Positions 556-22,609 of a stretch of DNA of 64,000 nt are shown piece by piece. The DNA is from Halobaculum magnesiiphilum. Its GTDB lineage: Archaea > Halobacteriota > Halobacteria > Halobacteriales > Haloferacaceae. Each line of letters starts with the position of its first letter. The first letter of the stretch is position 1. The DNA is taken from contig NZ_CP081958.1 in the NCBI RefSeq assembly GCF_019823105.1, positions 434,001 through 498,000 of the forward strand, written 5' to 3'. The position numbers were made by a program, and so were the translations under genes. Below the pieces are notes generated by a model. That model made no database searches. It was not told the DNA's origin and saw only the letters and a list, made by a program, of their open reading frames with translations.

Positions 556-2493
556 ATGACTGACGACGGCGACGAGCCGCCCGTGGGCGGTGGCGTCGAC
601 GAGGACGGCGACGGCGTCAACGTGAACGACGACGACGGCGTCGGCACGGACGACGACATCGTCAACGAGGGCGTCGCCGACGAGACCCCCGCCGACCTCA
701 CGATCGACGGCTTCTACGACGCCGTCGAGGCGGCGGGACGCCCGGTGCTCACCGCCTCGGGGGTCGCACGCGAGACCGACCGCACGCAGGCGGCGGCGCG
801 CGACCACCTCGACGCGCTCGCCGCGGAGGGGTCCGTCGAGCGCGTCGACGTGGAGGCGGACCCGGTGGTGTACTACCCGAGCAGCTGGGGCGACCTCGCC
901 GAGCGCGAGCGGGTGGTGATGTTCCCGACGCGCCGGCAGATCGTGGTGGACCAGCCGACGCAGTACACCCGCGCGATGCTCGCGGACTTCGCCCACCTCG
1001 TCGACTCGACCGGGACCGAACCCGGCACCCGCGGCTACCTCTATGAGATCCGCCAGGAGGACATCTGGGCGGCGCCGTTCGAGGAGTTCGCCGAGTTGCT
1101 CGCGCGGATGCGGTCGGTGCTGCCGCGGCGCTCGCCGCATCTGGAGGAATGGGCGGAAAACCAGTGGAAGCGCGCGCGGCAGTTCCGCCTTCGCACCCAC
1201 GAGGACGGCTACGTGATCCTCGAGGCCGACCGCGAGGAGCTGATGGGCAACGTCGCCCGCCAGAAGCTCGACGGGTCGGCGCTGCAGGCGGAGCTTTCGG
1301 ACACCGAGTCGTGGGTGAACGACGAAGAGATCGGCCACGTGAAGCGCGTCCTCTACGAGGCGGGCTACCCCGTCATCGACGAGCGCGACCTCGAATCGGG
1401 CGACCCCCTCGACGTGACGCTGGAGGCGGACCTCCGCGCGTACCAGACGGACTGGGTCGACCGCTTCACCGAGCAGCGCGCGGGCGTGTTCGTCGCGCCG
1501 CCGGGGTCGGGCAAGACCGTCGCCGCGTTGGGCGCCCTGGAGGCGGTCGGCGGCGAGACGCTGATCCTCGTCCCCTCCCGGGAACTCGCCGGACAGTGGC
1601 GTTCCGAGATCCTCGCCCACACCGACCTCGAGGACGCCGATATCGGCGAGTACCACGGCGGCGAAAAGGAGATCGCGCCGGTGACGATCGCCACCTATCA
1701 GACCGCCGGGATGGACCGGCACCGCTCGCTGTTCGACTCCCGCGAGTGGGGGCTGATCGTCTACGACGAGTGCCACCACATCCCCAGCCCGGTGTTCAAA
1801 CGCTCCGCCGACCTCCAGAGCAAACATCGCCTCGGCCTGTCCGCGACCCCGATACGGGAGGACGACAACGAGGAGGAGATATTCACGCTCATCGGGCCGC
1901 CCATCGGCACCGACTGGGGCGCGCTGTTCGACGCCGGGTTCGTTCAAGAGCCGGAAGTCGAGATCCGGTACGTCCCGTGGCGCGACGACGAGGCCGAAAA
2001 CGAGTGGGCCAGCGCCGACGGCCGCCAGCGCCACATGGCCGCCGCACGAAACCCCGCGAAGGCCGACGAGGTGCGTCGCCTGCGCGAGCGTCACGGCGAC
2101 GCGAAGGCGCTCGTGTTCGTCGACTACCTCGATCAGGGCGAGGCGCTCGCGGCCGAGTTGGGCGTCCCGTTCGTCTCCGGGGAGACGCGCCACCACGTCC
2201 GACAGCGTCTGTTCGAGGAGTTCCGGCAGGGCGAGCGCCGGACGCTCGTCGTTTCGCGGATCGCCGACGAGGGGATCGACCTCCCGAACGCGGAGCTGGC
2301 GGTCGTCGCGTCCGGGCTCGGGGGGAGTCGCCGACAGGGCGCACAGCGTGCAGGGCGGACGATGCGTCCCGCGGGATCGGCGCTCGTGTACGTGCTCGCG
2401 ACCCGGGGGACCAGCGAGGAGGACTTCGCACAGCGGCAGATGAACCACCTCGCGGAGAAGGGGATCCGCGTCCACGAGCGGACCGTCGAGTAG
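556..2493 (+). CDS. XPB/Rad25-type superfamily 2 DNA helicase
   Basis: DNA-dependent ATPase/helicase of the XPB (Rad25) family, expected to act in DNA repair or transcription-linked unwinding in the cytoplasm. About 90 residues with a winged-helix look come first, after an acidic Asp/Gly-rich tail. The helicase core follows: Walker A APPGSGKT near residue 314, motif Ia LVPSRELAGQW, motif II DECHH near 404, motif III SATP, directly followed by RED near 434, an XPB hallmark. Motif VI is QGAQRAGRTMRP near 595. At 645 residues it is longer than minimal archaeal XPB because of the N-terminal part. A T-rich TATA-like box at 525-532 lies about 28 bases before the ATG, which supports a leaderless start. 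It converges on the cupin gene with an 18-base gap. Confidence 0.88.
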   Translation: MTDDGDEPPVGGGVDEDGDGVNVNDDDGVGTDDDIVNEGVADETPADLTIDGFYDAVEAAGRPVLTASGVARETDRTQAAARDHLDALAAEGSVERVDVEADPVVYYPSSWGDLAERERVVMFPTRRQIVVDQPTQYTRAMLADFAHLVDSTGTEPGTRGYLYEIRQEDIWAAPFEEFAELLARMRSVLPRRSPHLEEWAENQWKRARQFRLRTHEDGYVILEADREELMGNVARQKLDGSALQAELSDTESWVNDEEIGHVKRVLYEAGYPVIDERDLESGDPLDVTLEADLRAYQTDWVDRFTEQRAGVFVAPPGSGKTVAALGALEAVGGETLILVPSRELAGQWRSEILAHTDLEDADIGEYHGGEKEIAPVTIATYQTAGMDRHRSLFDSREWGLIVYDECHHIPSPVFKRSADLQSKHRLGLSATPIREDDNEEEIFTLIGPPIGTDWGALFDAGFVQEPEVEIRYVPWRDDEAENEWASADGRQRHMAAARNPAKADEVRRLRERHGDAKALVFVDYLDQGEALAAELGVPFVSGETRHHVRQRLFEEFRQGERRTLVVSRIADEGIDLPNAELAVVASGLGGSRRQGAQRAGRTMRPAGSALVYVLATRGTSEEDFAQRQMNHLAEKGIRVHERTVE

Positions 2494-2510
2494 CCGACGC
2501 CGGCGCCGTC

Positions 2511-3080
2511 CTATCGTTCCAGCGGCGCGTCGTCGAACCGCGCCCCACAGTCGCCGCACTCGACGACCGGGTCGTTCGCGTCGTCCGTCGTGAACCCGAG
2601 GTCGTCTCTCCCGCAGTCCGGACACGGCGCGGGCGTGTGTTCCGCCTCGCAGGCTGGACACGCGAACGTCAGGTCGCCGTCGGTGGCGAGCCGGAGCGAG
2701 TCCGCCCCGCAGTCGGGGCACGTCGCCGGGACGCGCACGTCGTCGCTGTCGCGGGGCGCGCCGAGCGCGAACGCGACGAGGTCGTCGTCGCCGTCGCCGT
2801 CGTTGTGTCCGGTCTGGAACTCGCCGGGCGCGAACCGGATCGCCTCGCCCGCCTCTACCCGAACGTCCCCCTCGAGCGTCTCGAACGTCGCCGACCCGGC
2901 GACGACGACGAACACTTCCTCCTGATCGGCGTGTGCGTGGAGGCCGCTCGGGAACCCGTCGCCGGGAGCGATCCGGTAGCGGTTGATCGCGACGTGTTCG
3001 GTTCCGAGCGCGTCGCCGAGCCGGACCGTTCCCCGCTCCTCGTCGCCGCCGTCGCCGCCGTCGCTGCCGTCGCGAAACAT
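2511..3080 (-). CDS. Cupin domain fused to zinc-ribbon repeats
   Basis: A 189-residue protein in two parts. Residues ~20-105 form a cupin barrel: a metal-site-like histidine pair (GLHAHADQEEVFVV), the glycine-rich EGDVRVEAGEAIRFAPGEFQTGHN turn region, and alternating short beta strands. The C-terminal part carries CxxC pairs (CPDCGAD, CPACEAE, CPDCGRD, CGDCGAR) forming two zinc ribbons. The substrate is unknown. ATG at 3080 was chosen because GGAG sits six bases upstream; a GTG at 3092 is an alternative. It starts just after the stop of the upstream gene, so the two are probably co-transcribed. Confidence 0.75.
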   Translation of the reverse strand: MFRDGSDGGDGGDEERGTVRLGDALGTEHVAINRYRIAPGDGFPSGLHAHADQEEVFVVVAGSATFETLEGDVRVEAGEAIRFAPGEFQTGHNDGDGDDDLVAFALGAPRDSDDVRVPATCPDCGADSLRLATDGDLTFACPACEAEHTPAPCPDCGRDDLGFTTDDANDPVVECGDCGARFDDAPLER

Positions 3081-3094
3081 AGCGTACTCCACGG

Positions 3095-3877
3095 CTACTC
3101 GCCTTCGCCGTCGTCGAACTCCGGTTCCGCCCACTTGTCGTCGGCGTCGACAGGGTCGACCGCGTGGGCCACCTGCGCGCCCGAGAAGTCCACGTCGTGC
3201 AGCGCCATGTTGAGCCGCTGCCAGCGGGCGCTTTGCTCGTCCTCCCCGGTCGGACCGACGCGGGCGCCGTGGGTCTTGAAGAACTCCCCGTCGCGGCCCA
3301 TGCGGCTCCCCTCCCCCGTGTGCTTGTCGAACGCCACGTCGTACTCGCCGCCGGGCTCGAACTCGCCGACCGGGAAGTCCACCTGCGGCTCGCCGCCCGT
3401 TTCGCGCGCCTCGGCACGCTCGGCGGCGGCGTTTCGGAAGAACTCGTCGGCGTTCGGCGCCTCCCGGGAGGAACTCGCGCGTGCGCACGCCAGCGCGGCG
3501 TGGATCGCACACAGTCGGCCGCGCCACTCGGCGGGGTCCCAGCGGTCGGTCGCGAGCGTCTCGTAGCGGTCGACCAGCAGCGCGACCTCCTGGCCGGCAC
3601 GGAGGTCCTCGACGACGTACAGGTGGAGGCGCTCCCAGAGGTTCCACGCGAACCCCGAACGGGCCAGTTCCCAGGCGGCCCACGCGGCGACCTCCTCGTC
3701 GGAGCGGCGGACCGCCTTCTGGAGCAGGCTGGACACCGCATAGCGGTTGTACCCGCCCTGCGTCTCGTCGGCGTCCATCGGTTCGCCGAAGTCGTTCGTG
3801 TCGTCGGCGTCCGGGTCGCGATCGGAGAGTTCCCCGTCGGCGCCGAACGTCGTCTGTCGGCTCGCGTCGTCGCCCAT
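3095..3877 (-). CDS. RarA/MgsA C-terminal-like helical protein lacking the ATPase
   Basis: A 260-residue acidic protein. From about residue 45 the sequence (YAVSSLLQKAVRRSDEEVAA, then a Trp/Leu-rich helix and AIHAALACARA) resembles the C-terminal helical tetramerisation region of RarA/MgsA/WRNIP1-type AAA+ proteins. A later stretch (AFDKHTGEGSRMGRDGEFF) fits the same region. There is no Walker A or B, so it cannot be the full ATPase. Start: a TATA-like box on the minus strand at 3904-3911 places the transcript start at ATG 3877; a GTG at 3895 is possible. The role is inferred only from resemblance; it may assist replication or repair. Probably co-transcribed with the cupin gene. Confidence 0.6.
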   Translation of the reverse strand: MGDDASRQTTFGADGELSDRDPDADDTNDFGEPMDADETQGGYNRYAVSSLLQKAVRRSDEEVAAWAAWELARSGFAWNLWERLHLYVVEDLRAGQEVALLVDRYETLATDRWDPAEWRGRLCAIHAALACARASSSREAPNADEFFRNAAAERAEARETGGEPQVDFPVGEFEPGGEYDVAFDKHTGEGSRMGRDGEFFKTHGARVGPTGEDEQSARWQRLNMALHDVDFSGAQVAHAVDPVDADDKWAEPEFDDGEGE

Positions 3878-3960
3878 GACATCCGCGCTGTCCACGTCGC
3901 GTGCGATAAACCCCCCGACGGGGGCGTGGCTCGGCGTGACGTAGTGGGGTCGAATGAGAA

Positions 3961-3971
3961 CCCTTAAGTCC
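3961..3971 (+). promoter_or_regulatory. TATA-type promoter of tRNA-Tyr
   Basis: CTTAAG within ACCCTTAAGT lies about 30 bases upstream of the mature tRNA 5' end, the usual position of an archaeal TATA box. The same CTTAAG/ACTTAG/ATTAAC type of box precedes the other tRNA genes of the window. Confidence 0.7.
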
Positions 3972-3997
3972 GAATCGGCGGGTATCTGTTGATGTAT

Positions 3998-4071
3998 CCG
4001 GGTTTAGCTCAGCCTGGTAGAGCAGCCGACTGTAGATCGGCTTGCCCCCCGTTCAAATCGGGGAACCCGGA
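3998..4071 (+). tRNA. tRNA-Tyr (GTA)
   Basis: A full cloverleaf of 74 bases: acceptor CCGGGTT pairs with AACCCGG, the discriminator base is A, the anticodon loop is CTGTAGA (anticodon GTA) on a GCCGA/TCGGC stem, and the T-arm is CCCCG/CGGGG. C1-G72 is the archaeal tyrosine identity pair. No intron and no encoded CCA. It is followed by an unusual repeat that copies its 3' portion. Confidence 0.96.
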
Positions 4072-4234
4072 CTTTCTGTCGCCGCCACGGCGAGGGAGCG
4101 GAGCGACCGAGCCGGCGGCGACGAAGCCGATCCGTGAACCGATTTGAAGAGACGAGTCGCAGTCCGGAACGGCGAGCGGAGCGAGCCGCATGCCCGAACC
4201 GTCTCGGCGTATTCAAATCGGGGAACCCGGACTT
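4072..4234 (+). repeat. Structured repeat ending in a copy of the tRNA-Tyr 3' part
   Basis: The 228 bases between tRNA-Tyr and the lipoprotein gene hold no gene. They contain, in order: a hairpin 4078-4122 (outer arms GTCGCCGC/GCGGCGAC, apical loop GAGCGGAGCGA at 4096-4106); an inverted T-loop sequence CCGATTTGAA at 4139-4148; a second hairpin with the same loop at 4174-4184 closed by CGGC/GCCG; and a direct copy (4212-4234) of tRNA positions 4052-4071 plus the next three bases. The inverted and direct T-loop sequences are complementary and close a large stem. The same order of parts occurs after tRNA-Glu. It could be a captured attachment site, a mini mobile element or a structured RNA. Confidence 0.85.
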
Positions 4235-4298
4235 CTGTTGCTGCCGTCGCTCCCGACCACGACCATATATAATCGTTTCCACGAGTTGTCGAGCCGAC

Positions 4299-5177
4299 AT
4301 GGTTCGTCACCGGTTGAAGGGGTGGGCTGTCGAACGCGAGAGCGTGAGCCGAGATCTCACGCGTCGCCGCGTCCTCGCGGGCGGCGCAACGGCCCTCCTG
4401 GCATCGATCGGCGGCTGCAGCGGCGCGACGCCGTTCGTCGGCAAGCGAACCGAGCGCGACGAGACGGTCGCCGTCGACGGAGCCGAACGGCTCGTCGCTC
4501 GAACCGACTTGGGCGACGTGACACTTCGTGCCGAAGCGCGCGACGACATCGGCGTGCGGATCACGAAGCAAGCCAGCAGCGTCACGGCGGACCTCTCGGA
4601 TCTCTCCTTCCGGGTCGAGCGGTCGGGGGGCGATCTCGTCCTCCGTTCGGAGTTCACCGGGGACACGGAGTTCTTCGGCGGCCGCCCGTCGATGTCGCTC
4701 GACGTGACGCTGCCCCGGTCGCTGCCAGTGTCGGCCGTCCGGAGTTCCGTCGGCGACATCTCCGTCGACGGCGTCGACGGCGACGTGGACGCCGAGACGG
4801 ACACCGGTGACGTCCGCCTCCGCGGCGTCTCAGGGTCGGTCCGGGCGGCGGCGTCGACCGGCGACGTGACGGTGGCCGATCCTGACGCGATCCGAGGCGC
4901 GCGGACCCAGACCGGCGACGTGACCGCCGATGTCCCCGACCTCGACGGCGACGTCCGGGTCGAGTCGCGAACCGGCGATGTCGCGGTCGCGGTCGGCGGG
5001 AACGTCGACGCCGACCTCCGGGTCGCCACCAGCACCGGCGACGTGTCGGTCGACGGGGTGTCGCTGTCGGAGGCGACCCGGACCGACGACCTCGTGACCG
5101 GCACGCTCGGCGACGGCGGCCCCTCCCTCGCCGTCGAGACCCGTACCGGCGACGCGTCGGTCTCCCCGCTGAACTGA
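4299..5177 (+). CDS. Tat-exported lipoprotein with DUF4097-like beta-repeat domain
   Basis: A 292-residue predicted cell-surface lipoprotein. The N-terminus has a twin-arginine signal (TRRRVLAGG), a short hydrophobic stretch and a lipobox ending in GGC, the usual haloarchaeal Tat-lipoprotein layout. The rest consists of regularly repeated strands with recurring TGDV turns (for example DTGDVRLRG, STGDVTVA, RTGDVAVA, STGDVSVDG), typical of the DUF4097 right-handed beta fold. The function is unknown; such proteins are usually adhesin-like or accessory to membrane sensors. TATATAAT at about 4265-4272 lies ~27-30 bases before ATG 4299, supporting a leaderless start. A GTG at 4344 would remove residues before the Tat motif. 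Confidence 0.8.
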   Translation: MVRHRLKGWAVERESVSRDLTRRRVLAGGATALLASIGGCSGATPFVGKRTERDETVAVDGAERLVARTDLGDVTLRAEARDDIGVRITKQASSVTADLSDLSFRVERSGGDLVLRSEFTGDTEFFGGRPSMSLDVTLPRSLPVSAVRSSVGDISVDGVDGDVDAETDTGDVRLRGVSGSVRAAASTGDVTVADPDAIRGARTQTGDVTADVPDLDGDVRVESRTGDVAVAVGGNVDADLRVATSTGDVSVDGVSLSEATRTDDLVTGTLGDGGPSLAVETRTGDASVSPLN

Positions 5178-22413: not shown

Positions 22414-22488
22414 GCTCGGTTGGTGTAGTCCGGCCAATCATGTTGGCCTTTCGAGCCGACGACCAGGGTTCAAATCCCTGACCGAGCA
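22414..22488 (+). tRNA. tRNA-Glu (TTC)
   Basis: A cloverleaf of 75 bases: acceptor GCTCGGT/ACCGAGC, discriminator A, anticodon loop CTTTCGA (anticodon TTC) on TTGGC/GCCGA, T-arm AGGGTTCAAATCCCT. GATTAAC about 32 bases upstream is the likely TATA box. The 3' part from 22467 is copied exactly at 22588-22609. Confidence 0.95.
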
Positions 22489-22609
22489 TGGTTCTCGGAA
22501 CGGAGTGGAGAGAGCCACGCGCAGCGTCGGGATTTGAAGTAGACGGGACGCAGCGACCGAGCGGAGCGAGGTCGACCGTCCCGGTGTGGTTCAAATCCCT
22601 GACCGAGCA
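22489..22609 (+). repeat. Structured repeat ending in a copy of the tRNA-Glu 3' part
   Basis: Directly after the tRNA, in order: hairpin TCTC/GAGA (22493-22496 with 22510-22513) with a GGA-AC-GGA-GT-GGA apex; inverted T-loop GGGATTTGAA at 22529-22538; a hairpin with CGGGAC/GTCCCG (22544-22549 with 22578-22583) enclosing CGACC-GAGCGGAGCGA-GGTCG (loop 22559-22569); then an exact 22-base copy (22588-22609) of tRNA positions 22467-22488. TTCAAATCCC in the copy is complementary to the inverted block. The order of parts matches the region after tRNA-Tyr. Confidence 0.87.

Follow-up and report, generated by a model that had tools for sequence, protein, structure and literature searches.

Short non-coding units with an inverted T-arm block and a copy of the adjacent tRNA 3' end lie behind tRNA genes in haloarchaea

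Introduction

Integrons place a single-strand-folding attC site beside a fixed double-stranded site and build arrays of shuffled modules, and the rtT repeats behind E. coli tyrT are tandem and contain the 3' terminal bases of the tRNA. Phage Ms6 is reported to exchange strands within the 7-bp T-loop of tRNA-Ala, and a changed core can redirect it to other tRNA-Ala genes (PMC1762012); a review of archaeal integrases lists the T stem-loop among the integration regions (PMC8371274). The SMR-A repeats of Haloquadratum are about 110 bp long, non-coding and palindromic, with an unknown mobiliser and a preference for palindromes as targets, and SMRs and PATEs target IS605-type elements without target duplication, SMR ends being fixed (PMC3119063). 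Haloarchaea are also known to lose DNA between short direct repeats, among them a partial tRNA duplication of 22 bp in Haloquadratum (PMC3119063).

Here, we describe a family of units that we encountered behind tRNA-Glu and tRNA-Tyr in a 64,000-nucleotide stretch of DNA from Halobaculum magnesiiphilum (the window). T-loop-crossover tyrosine-integrase elements (Ms6 type; PMC8371274) resemble these units in the tRNA 3'-end repeat reaching the discriminator N73, in a left boundary at the T-loop and in the use of many tRNAs by related elements. The units differ from them in being about 100-160 bp long, in lacking an integrase, in having an inverted T-arm block and a conserved hairpin, and in forming tandem arrays with the same core on different tRNAs. 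Like integron attC sites, they set a folding site beside a fixed double-stranded one within arrays of shuffled modules, and their fold resembles the attC layout when compared by fold rather than by sequence motif, except that the inner boundary differs; in contrast to integron cassettes, they lack a cassette gene, use the tRNA T-arm as fixed site and have ends specific to the host tRNA. With SMR-A they share a small size (~110 bp in SMR-A), a non-coding and palindromic character and a marked target preference, but their ends copy the target tRNA instead of being fixed as described for SMRs. Neither the fixed inverted ends nor the IS605/PATE palindrome target of SMR-A was found, as the inverted ends vary with the tRNA, and all strong model matches but one are tRNA-linked, contrary to SMR-A targeting. 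The rtT repeats, likewise tandem behind a tRNA gene and holding its 3' terminal bases, are restricted to a single locus and tRNA, lack an inverted T-arm block and are unrelated in sequence, whereas the units span a whole class and 28 tRNA species. We found no account of the family in the open literature and group it with short, non-autonomous mobile repeats and with elements directed to tRNAs.

Results

In the window, tRNA-Glu lies downstream of a flap endonuclease gene (91% identity to H. gomorrense) and is followed by two hairpins, an inverted block and a copied 3' end (Table 1). The exact 22-bp repeat (22467-22488 = 22588-22609) is the sole long direct repeat at this gene, and together with the perfect inverted block and the two hairpins it bears out the original prediction of this architecture, which also held for the same order of parts at tRNA-Tyr. 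When folded as RNA, the Glu unit (22489-22609) reached -59.2 kcal/mol (z = -4.5 against dinucleotide shuffles). The two tRNA-Ser genes and tRNA-Leu(CAG) of the window carry no unit, as had been claimed, and an Rfam 15 scan of the window returned nothing above the family gathering cut-offs except tRNA.

Table 1 Features of the tRNA-Glu and tRNA-Tyr units in the window
Feature	Position	Strand	Evidence
tRNA-Glu(TTC), anchor gene; T54-N73 = 22469-22488	22414-22488	+	ARAGORN, Rfam RF00005
Glu-unit hairpin 1, directly after N73	about 22489-22517	+	RNA fold
Glu-unit inverted block GGGATTTGAA	22529-22538	+	perfect reverse complement of 22469-22478 (tRNA-Glu T54-63)
Glu-unit hairpin 2, conserved core ending GTGTGG, covarying stem, contains GAGCGGAGCGA	22539-22589	+	
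Glu-unit covariance model match	22529-22599		84.5 bits
Glu-unit copy of T54-N73	22590-22609; 22588-22609 including two shared G	+	exact repeat
tRNA-Tyr(GTA), second anchor gene	3998-4072	+	ARAGORN
Tyr-unit hairpin 1	4078-4122	+	inverted repeat 4078-4086 / 4114-4122
Tyr-unit inverted block CCGATTTGAA	4139-4148	+	
Tyr-unit hairpin 2	4149-4211	+	model match 4139-4221, 56.2 bits
Tyr-unit copy of tRNA-Tyr 3' end	4212-4234	+	23 nt exact, = 4052-4074

The order of parts in a unit is tRNA, hairpin 1, the reverse complement of the tRNA's own T54-63 (inverted block), hairpin 2 and a copy of T54-N73, in about 100-160 bp of non-coding DNA. Among 81 tRNA loci that have a copy, the match to the tRNA begins at G53/T54 and stops at N73 or a few bases past it, and the spacer is mostly 80-145 nt long. 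The block common to tRNA and copy is T54-N73, since the additional G52 and G53 also occur in most T-arms and at the end of hairpin 2. Pairing in hairpin 1 begins 0-1 nt past N73 in 84/144 units, and its loop carries the motif GAAC-N2..7-GTGA in 59/157 cases, compared to 0 in the reversed control. Hairpin 2 is conserved across the class and has the core AGAC-N-AGTCGCA ... CGTCT-N-G-N-CGTGG. In helix 2 of its stem, 98% of cells are paired and 6/6 pairs have changed on both sides, in an alignment that was fitted to the model, so that these covariation counts lean towards structure; covariation in the stem far exceeds that of slid and shuffled controls. Counting wobble pairs (GT versus AC) revealed no clear strand preference with one doubtful column set aside. 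Copies with an extra T-loop base (TTCA-N-A/C-TCCC), which forms a bulge against the inverted block, occur at different tRNAs, e.g. at L031, L199, L205, L220, and L253.

Throughout the genome of the window, the own 12-nt 3' end (at most one mismatch) recurs within 330 nt downstream at 20/51 tRNAs. Because it recurs upstream at 0/51, and foreign tRNA ends were found in the same regions in only 11/2450 control comparisons (0.45%), chance is excluded. Likewise, the reverse complement of T54-63 is present downstream of 18 tRNAs and upstream of none. A covariance model comprising the inverted block, hairpin 2 and the copy (R1) matched 16 distinct places in this genome at E <= 0.02, each directly 3' of a tRNA and on the same strand. 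Matches were obtained in 11/11 genomes of the genus Halobaculum (1 to 25 per genome), and at least one match at E <= 1e-5 was present in 269/292 genomes of the class (92%) and 70/77 genera, which is a lower bound because few candidates were scored. In a sample of the phylum, 47/53 genomes of the haloarchaeal class were positive, compared to 0/242 outside it. The order of parts is thus enriched behind tRNAs both genome-wide and class-wide, and the lack of enrichment that would speak against the original prediction was not observed.

We inspected 71 loci, namely the best-scoring model matches from the window genome, the genus and the class, and in 66 of them a recognised tRNA immediately precedes the match, on the same strand. 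Among the other five are two with E > 0.3, one parted from its tRNA by a 3.4-kb insert, one behind a tRNA-like sequence missed by ARAGORN (perhaps owing to an intron), and one behind an attR copy. A 37-bit match with 77% G+C and no tRNA nearby (L206; G006:C1:1222711-1222780, minus strand) is possibly a false positive.

Units at 28 tRNA species pass the filter of at most two mismatches in the inverted block. The copy always reproduces the 3' end of the neighbouring tRNA, which supports the claim that the element takes on the 3' end of its tRNA. The inverted block adopts the local tRNA sequence as well, a point that the earlier claim had not made: at tRNAs whose T54-63 is unlike TTCAAATCCC, it is closer to the own tRNA in 61/69 units, closer to the consensus in 3 and tied in 5. 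Where copy and tRNA mismatch, the inverted block agrees with the tRNA (in 16 cases, of which some 12 are informative); a larger count included parse artefacts and came from a search biased towards the tRNA. Decay has changed the inverted block and left the copy intact in 58 units, and the reverse is true of 8. Compensatory evolution between the two was rejected, as no compensatory pair was found among canonical units and the one such site lies in a decayed unit (L050). It was thus the tRNA that set both parts when a unit formed, and mutual pairing does not keep them in step. A fold-back origin of the inverted block by snap-back replication was also rejected, since the reverse-complement similarity ends 2-3 nt past T63 and does not include the acceptor strand.

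A 43-nt hairpin 2 is identical behind Ser-TGA (G038) and Glu-CTC (G053), which belong to different genera, and other genera have it with 1-2 nt changed behind Glu-TTC, Gly-GCC, and a further Ser-TGA. Each of these units has the inverted block and copy of its own tRNA, which supports mobility of hairpin 2. Transfer between genes for the same tRNA is common too, given that the nearest neighbours of hairpin 2 from other genomes sit at the same tRNA in 31 cases, compared to 6.7 expected. In G006, which is closely related to the window genome (95% identity over 900 nt upstream of tRNA-Glu), the number of units differs from that in the window genome at Tyr, Gly-TCC, Leu-TAA, Leu-TAG, Asp, Val-TAC, Lys-CTT, Ser-CGA, and both Met-CAT genes. 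Between these two genomes, hairpin 2 differs at Gly-GCC while the flanks are the same, and at Gly-GCC and Met-CAT the type of hairpin 2 differs between species with hairpin 1 retained. At tRNA-Glu, the same two genomes have a different hairpin 1 and nearly the same hairpin 2, and the Tyr unit of the window genome corresponds to hairpin 1 of the first G006 unit fused to hairpin 2 of the second. Several loci have an orthologous hairpin 1 in different species, and tandem arrays of identical (A-A-A) as well as alternating (A-B-A) units were seen. The part that moves between tRNAs is hairpin 2, and hairpin 1 seems native to its locus where compared.

Decayed or absent units are common in sister species at a given tRNA. 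For instance, units at Met-CAT(intron) and Leu-TAG are present in G002 and G006 and absent from the window genome, and tRNA-Glu of H. litoreum has no unit, CTTCT following directly after the tRNA end as it follows the copy in the window. Among the compared species, no new insertion was seen in a clean state: the empty sites of the window genome look like losses because relatives have units there. The Met-CAT(intron) site, considered as evidence of a clean insertion, was discarded as a probable loss since G002 too has a unit at this position. To a large extent, where units are found today goes back to inheritance in the genus, to tandem duplication and to deletions between the direct repeats. 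The original prediction of targeting rather than chance duplication is partly supported: it stands as far as chance is concerned, but not as a case for a dedicated targeting machine.

The units contain a 3'-end direct repeat as in an att pair, with no integrase gene within the repeats; the spacer of 80-145 nt in the surveyed units is too small for a gene. Conventional integrative elements share unit-bearing tRNAs, namely Gly-CCC (L210, 3.4 kb), Leu-TAG (L211, 6 kb), and Gly-TCC (L257, 3 kb), and such elements, e.g. the one at L210, encode tyrosine integrases. Their attR copies begin in the anticodon arm or further 5' and leave the T-stem intact, in contrast to unit copies, which begin at T54. 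At L257 (G042, tRNA-Gly(TCC), 1347-4385), the element has its own unit at the tRNA-proximal end, with 98.7% identity over 151 nt to the unit behind attR, and units can therefore travel with integrative elements. The L210 element (G006, tRNA-Gly(CCC), 1311-4693) parts an older unit from its tRNA and has an inverted-block-like sequence, AACGGGAATTGATG, near its left end.

At Lys-CTT in G079, a tyrosine integrase gene adjoins a copy that begins at G53/T54 and is followed by two units; the integrase belongs to a family that is common across the class rather than unit-specific. The integrase at L255 was considered as a dedicated enzyme and rejected: genomes contain several members of its family, with attR boundaries that vary, and no link to the units can therefore be claimed. 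On the reverse strand near 2620-2780, L357 and L349 contain tRNA-Arg attR fragments adjoining integrase genes. In these fragments, a hairpin stretch with GTGG or GGC as its last bases before TTCAAATCC interrupts the T-arm at G53/T54. Reading these split T-arms solely as raw insertions was dismissed, as deletions of older units explain them equally. For an excised circular or viral form, blastn searches of plasmids and phages with the 121-nt query, whose sensitivity for diverged sequences is limited, were empty. The pattern GAGTCGCAGC..GACCGTCTC matched only coding DNA of phage-like contigs in viral and plasmid sources, and patterns spanning inverted block and copy gave 0 and 2 matches in IMG/VR, the two being a tRNA-like fragment and an unrelated stretch.

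Discussion

We tentatively favour, with slightly less than even confidence, the interpretation that the family consists of short, non-coding, non-autonomous mobile cassettes located solely behind tRNAs, whose hairpin 2 is exchanged by T-loop recombination, probably by a tyrosine recombinase. Hairpin 2 cassettes would be exchanged or inserted by recombination within the 7-bp T-loop (T54-60), and the enzyme would most likely be one of the tyrosine recombinases for which tRNA genes serve as att sites. T-loop sequence in opposing orientations (T-arm >, inverted block <, copy >) would flank the modules, and a crossover within T54-60 at opposed sites would swap hairpin 2 and spare the tRNA-specific flanks. 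At the gene, T54-N73 would stay intact because a functional tRNA is under selection, and losses would arise through deletion between direct repeats. The boundaries from G53/T54 to N73 are those expected from a T-loop crossover after which the tRNA has to be made whole again. Exchangeable cassettes are also favoured by the identical hairpin 2 on different tRNAs, by module swaps within a locus, by arrays, by a class-wide yet labile occurrence, by the integrase with its T-loop copy beside units at Lys-CTT and by the unit on the L257 element. The generic nature of the integrase family beside units, often with attR copies of other boundaries, speaks against them, as do the searches that found no free circular or viral copy, the lack of a clean new insertion among the compared species and the enrichment of same-tRNA neighbours. 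A more specific picture, of a mobile element of a kind of its own, a gene-free hairpin cassette that would recognise the universal tRNA T-loop, swap its hairpin between any tRNA genes via opposed T-arm sites and always be flanked by direct and inverted host-tRNA copies, class-wide and attC-like, is possible, although we regard it as doubtful.

The strong covariation of the hairpin 2 stem (98% paired, 6/6 pairs two-sided) would also be expected of a functional trailer RNA co-transcribed with the tRNA, whose hairpins would act in 3'-end formation, termination, regulation or as a decoy and whose copy would be a competing alternative 3' half. The invariable sense orientation directly 3' of the tRNA, the presence of units in 92% of the class genomes sampled and the retention of a unit at the tRNA-proximal end of an integrative element agree with this explanation. 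In contrast, the unit at a given tRNA is often missing or decayed in sister species, inverted block and copy drift independently without compensatory change among canonical units, and the wobble count, one doubtful column set aside, favours neither strand clearly; we consider a trailer RNA rather unlikely. Retention on an integrative element also fits general processes acting without a dedicated recombinase, namely inheritance, the horizontal spread of tRNA regions (also aboard integrative elements that carry the trailer), duplication in tandem and loss between short direct repeats. Orthologous hairpin 1 sequences at several loci, identical tandem units, the known short-direct-repeat deletions in haloarchaea (PMC3119063) and the enrichment of same-tRNA neighbours are all accommodated in this way. 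Because only ~10 bp of homology flanks hairpin 2, however, such processes fail to explain an identical hairpin 2 on different tRNAs with adapted inverted block and copy, and we judge them unlikely to suffice alone.

Copies of tRNA 3' ends are a hallmark of ordinary tRNA-targeted integrative elements, and conventional elements do occupy the same tRNAs (L210, L211, L257), as would be expected if units were att remnants left after internal deletion. Conventional copies nevertheless begin in the anticodon arm with the T-stem intact and unit copies at T54, and random deletions would not leave a uniform spacer of 80-145 nt with a conserved covarying hairpin, which makes this origin very improbable; the units are neither chance arrangements nor ordinary att remnants. 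Single-strand transposition as in IS200/IS605 or REP elements, in which the two hairpins would serve as end palindromes and the inverted block as a long guide pairing with the T-arm, would account for the pair of hairpins, the lack of coding potential and the stretch of complementarity to the target, and such elements are abundant in haloarchaea (PMC3119063). The mechanism as known involves neither a target-specific 10-nt guide nor a 20-nt copied end, and we give this possibility hardly any weight.

If exchange of hairpin 2 cassettes by T-loop recombination is true, nearly every haloarchaeal species has a dispersed, unannotated family of elements that is fixed to tRNA genes and whose targeting logic keeps the tRNA functional. 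The units would then provide a simple system for studying how recombination uses the T-loop as well as ready-made sites for archaeal genome engineering, and they would explain many 'partial tRNA' repeats in haloarchaeal genomes. They also bear on tRNA 3' trailers, which are seldom examined.

A dense tRNA array without units (Gln, Asp, Leu, Ser, Met, Glu, Arg) was observed at L045 (G000:C1:720500-725500). It looks like a mobile tRNA array because G006 has a counterpart on another contig (C2:103386-105421), in which tRNA scores and spacing are very similar.
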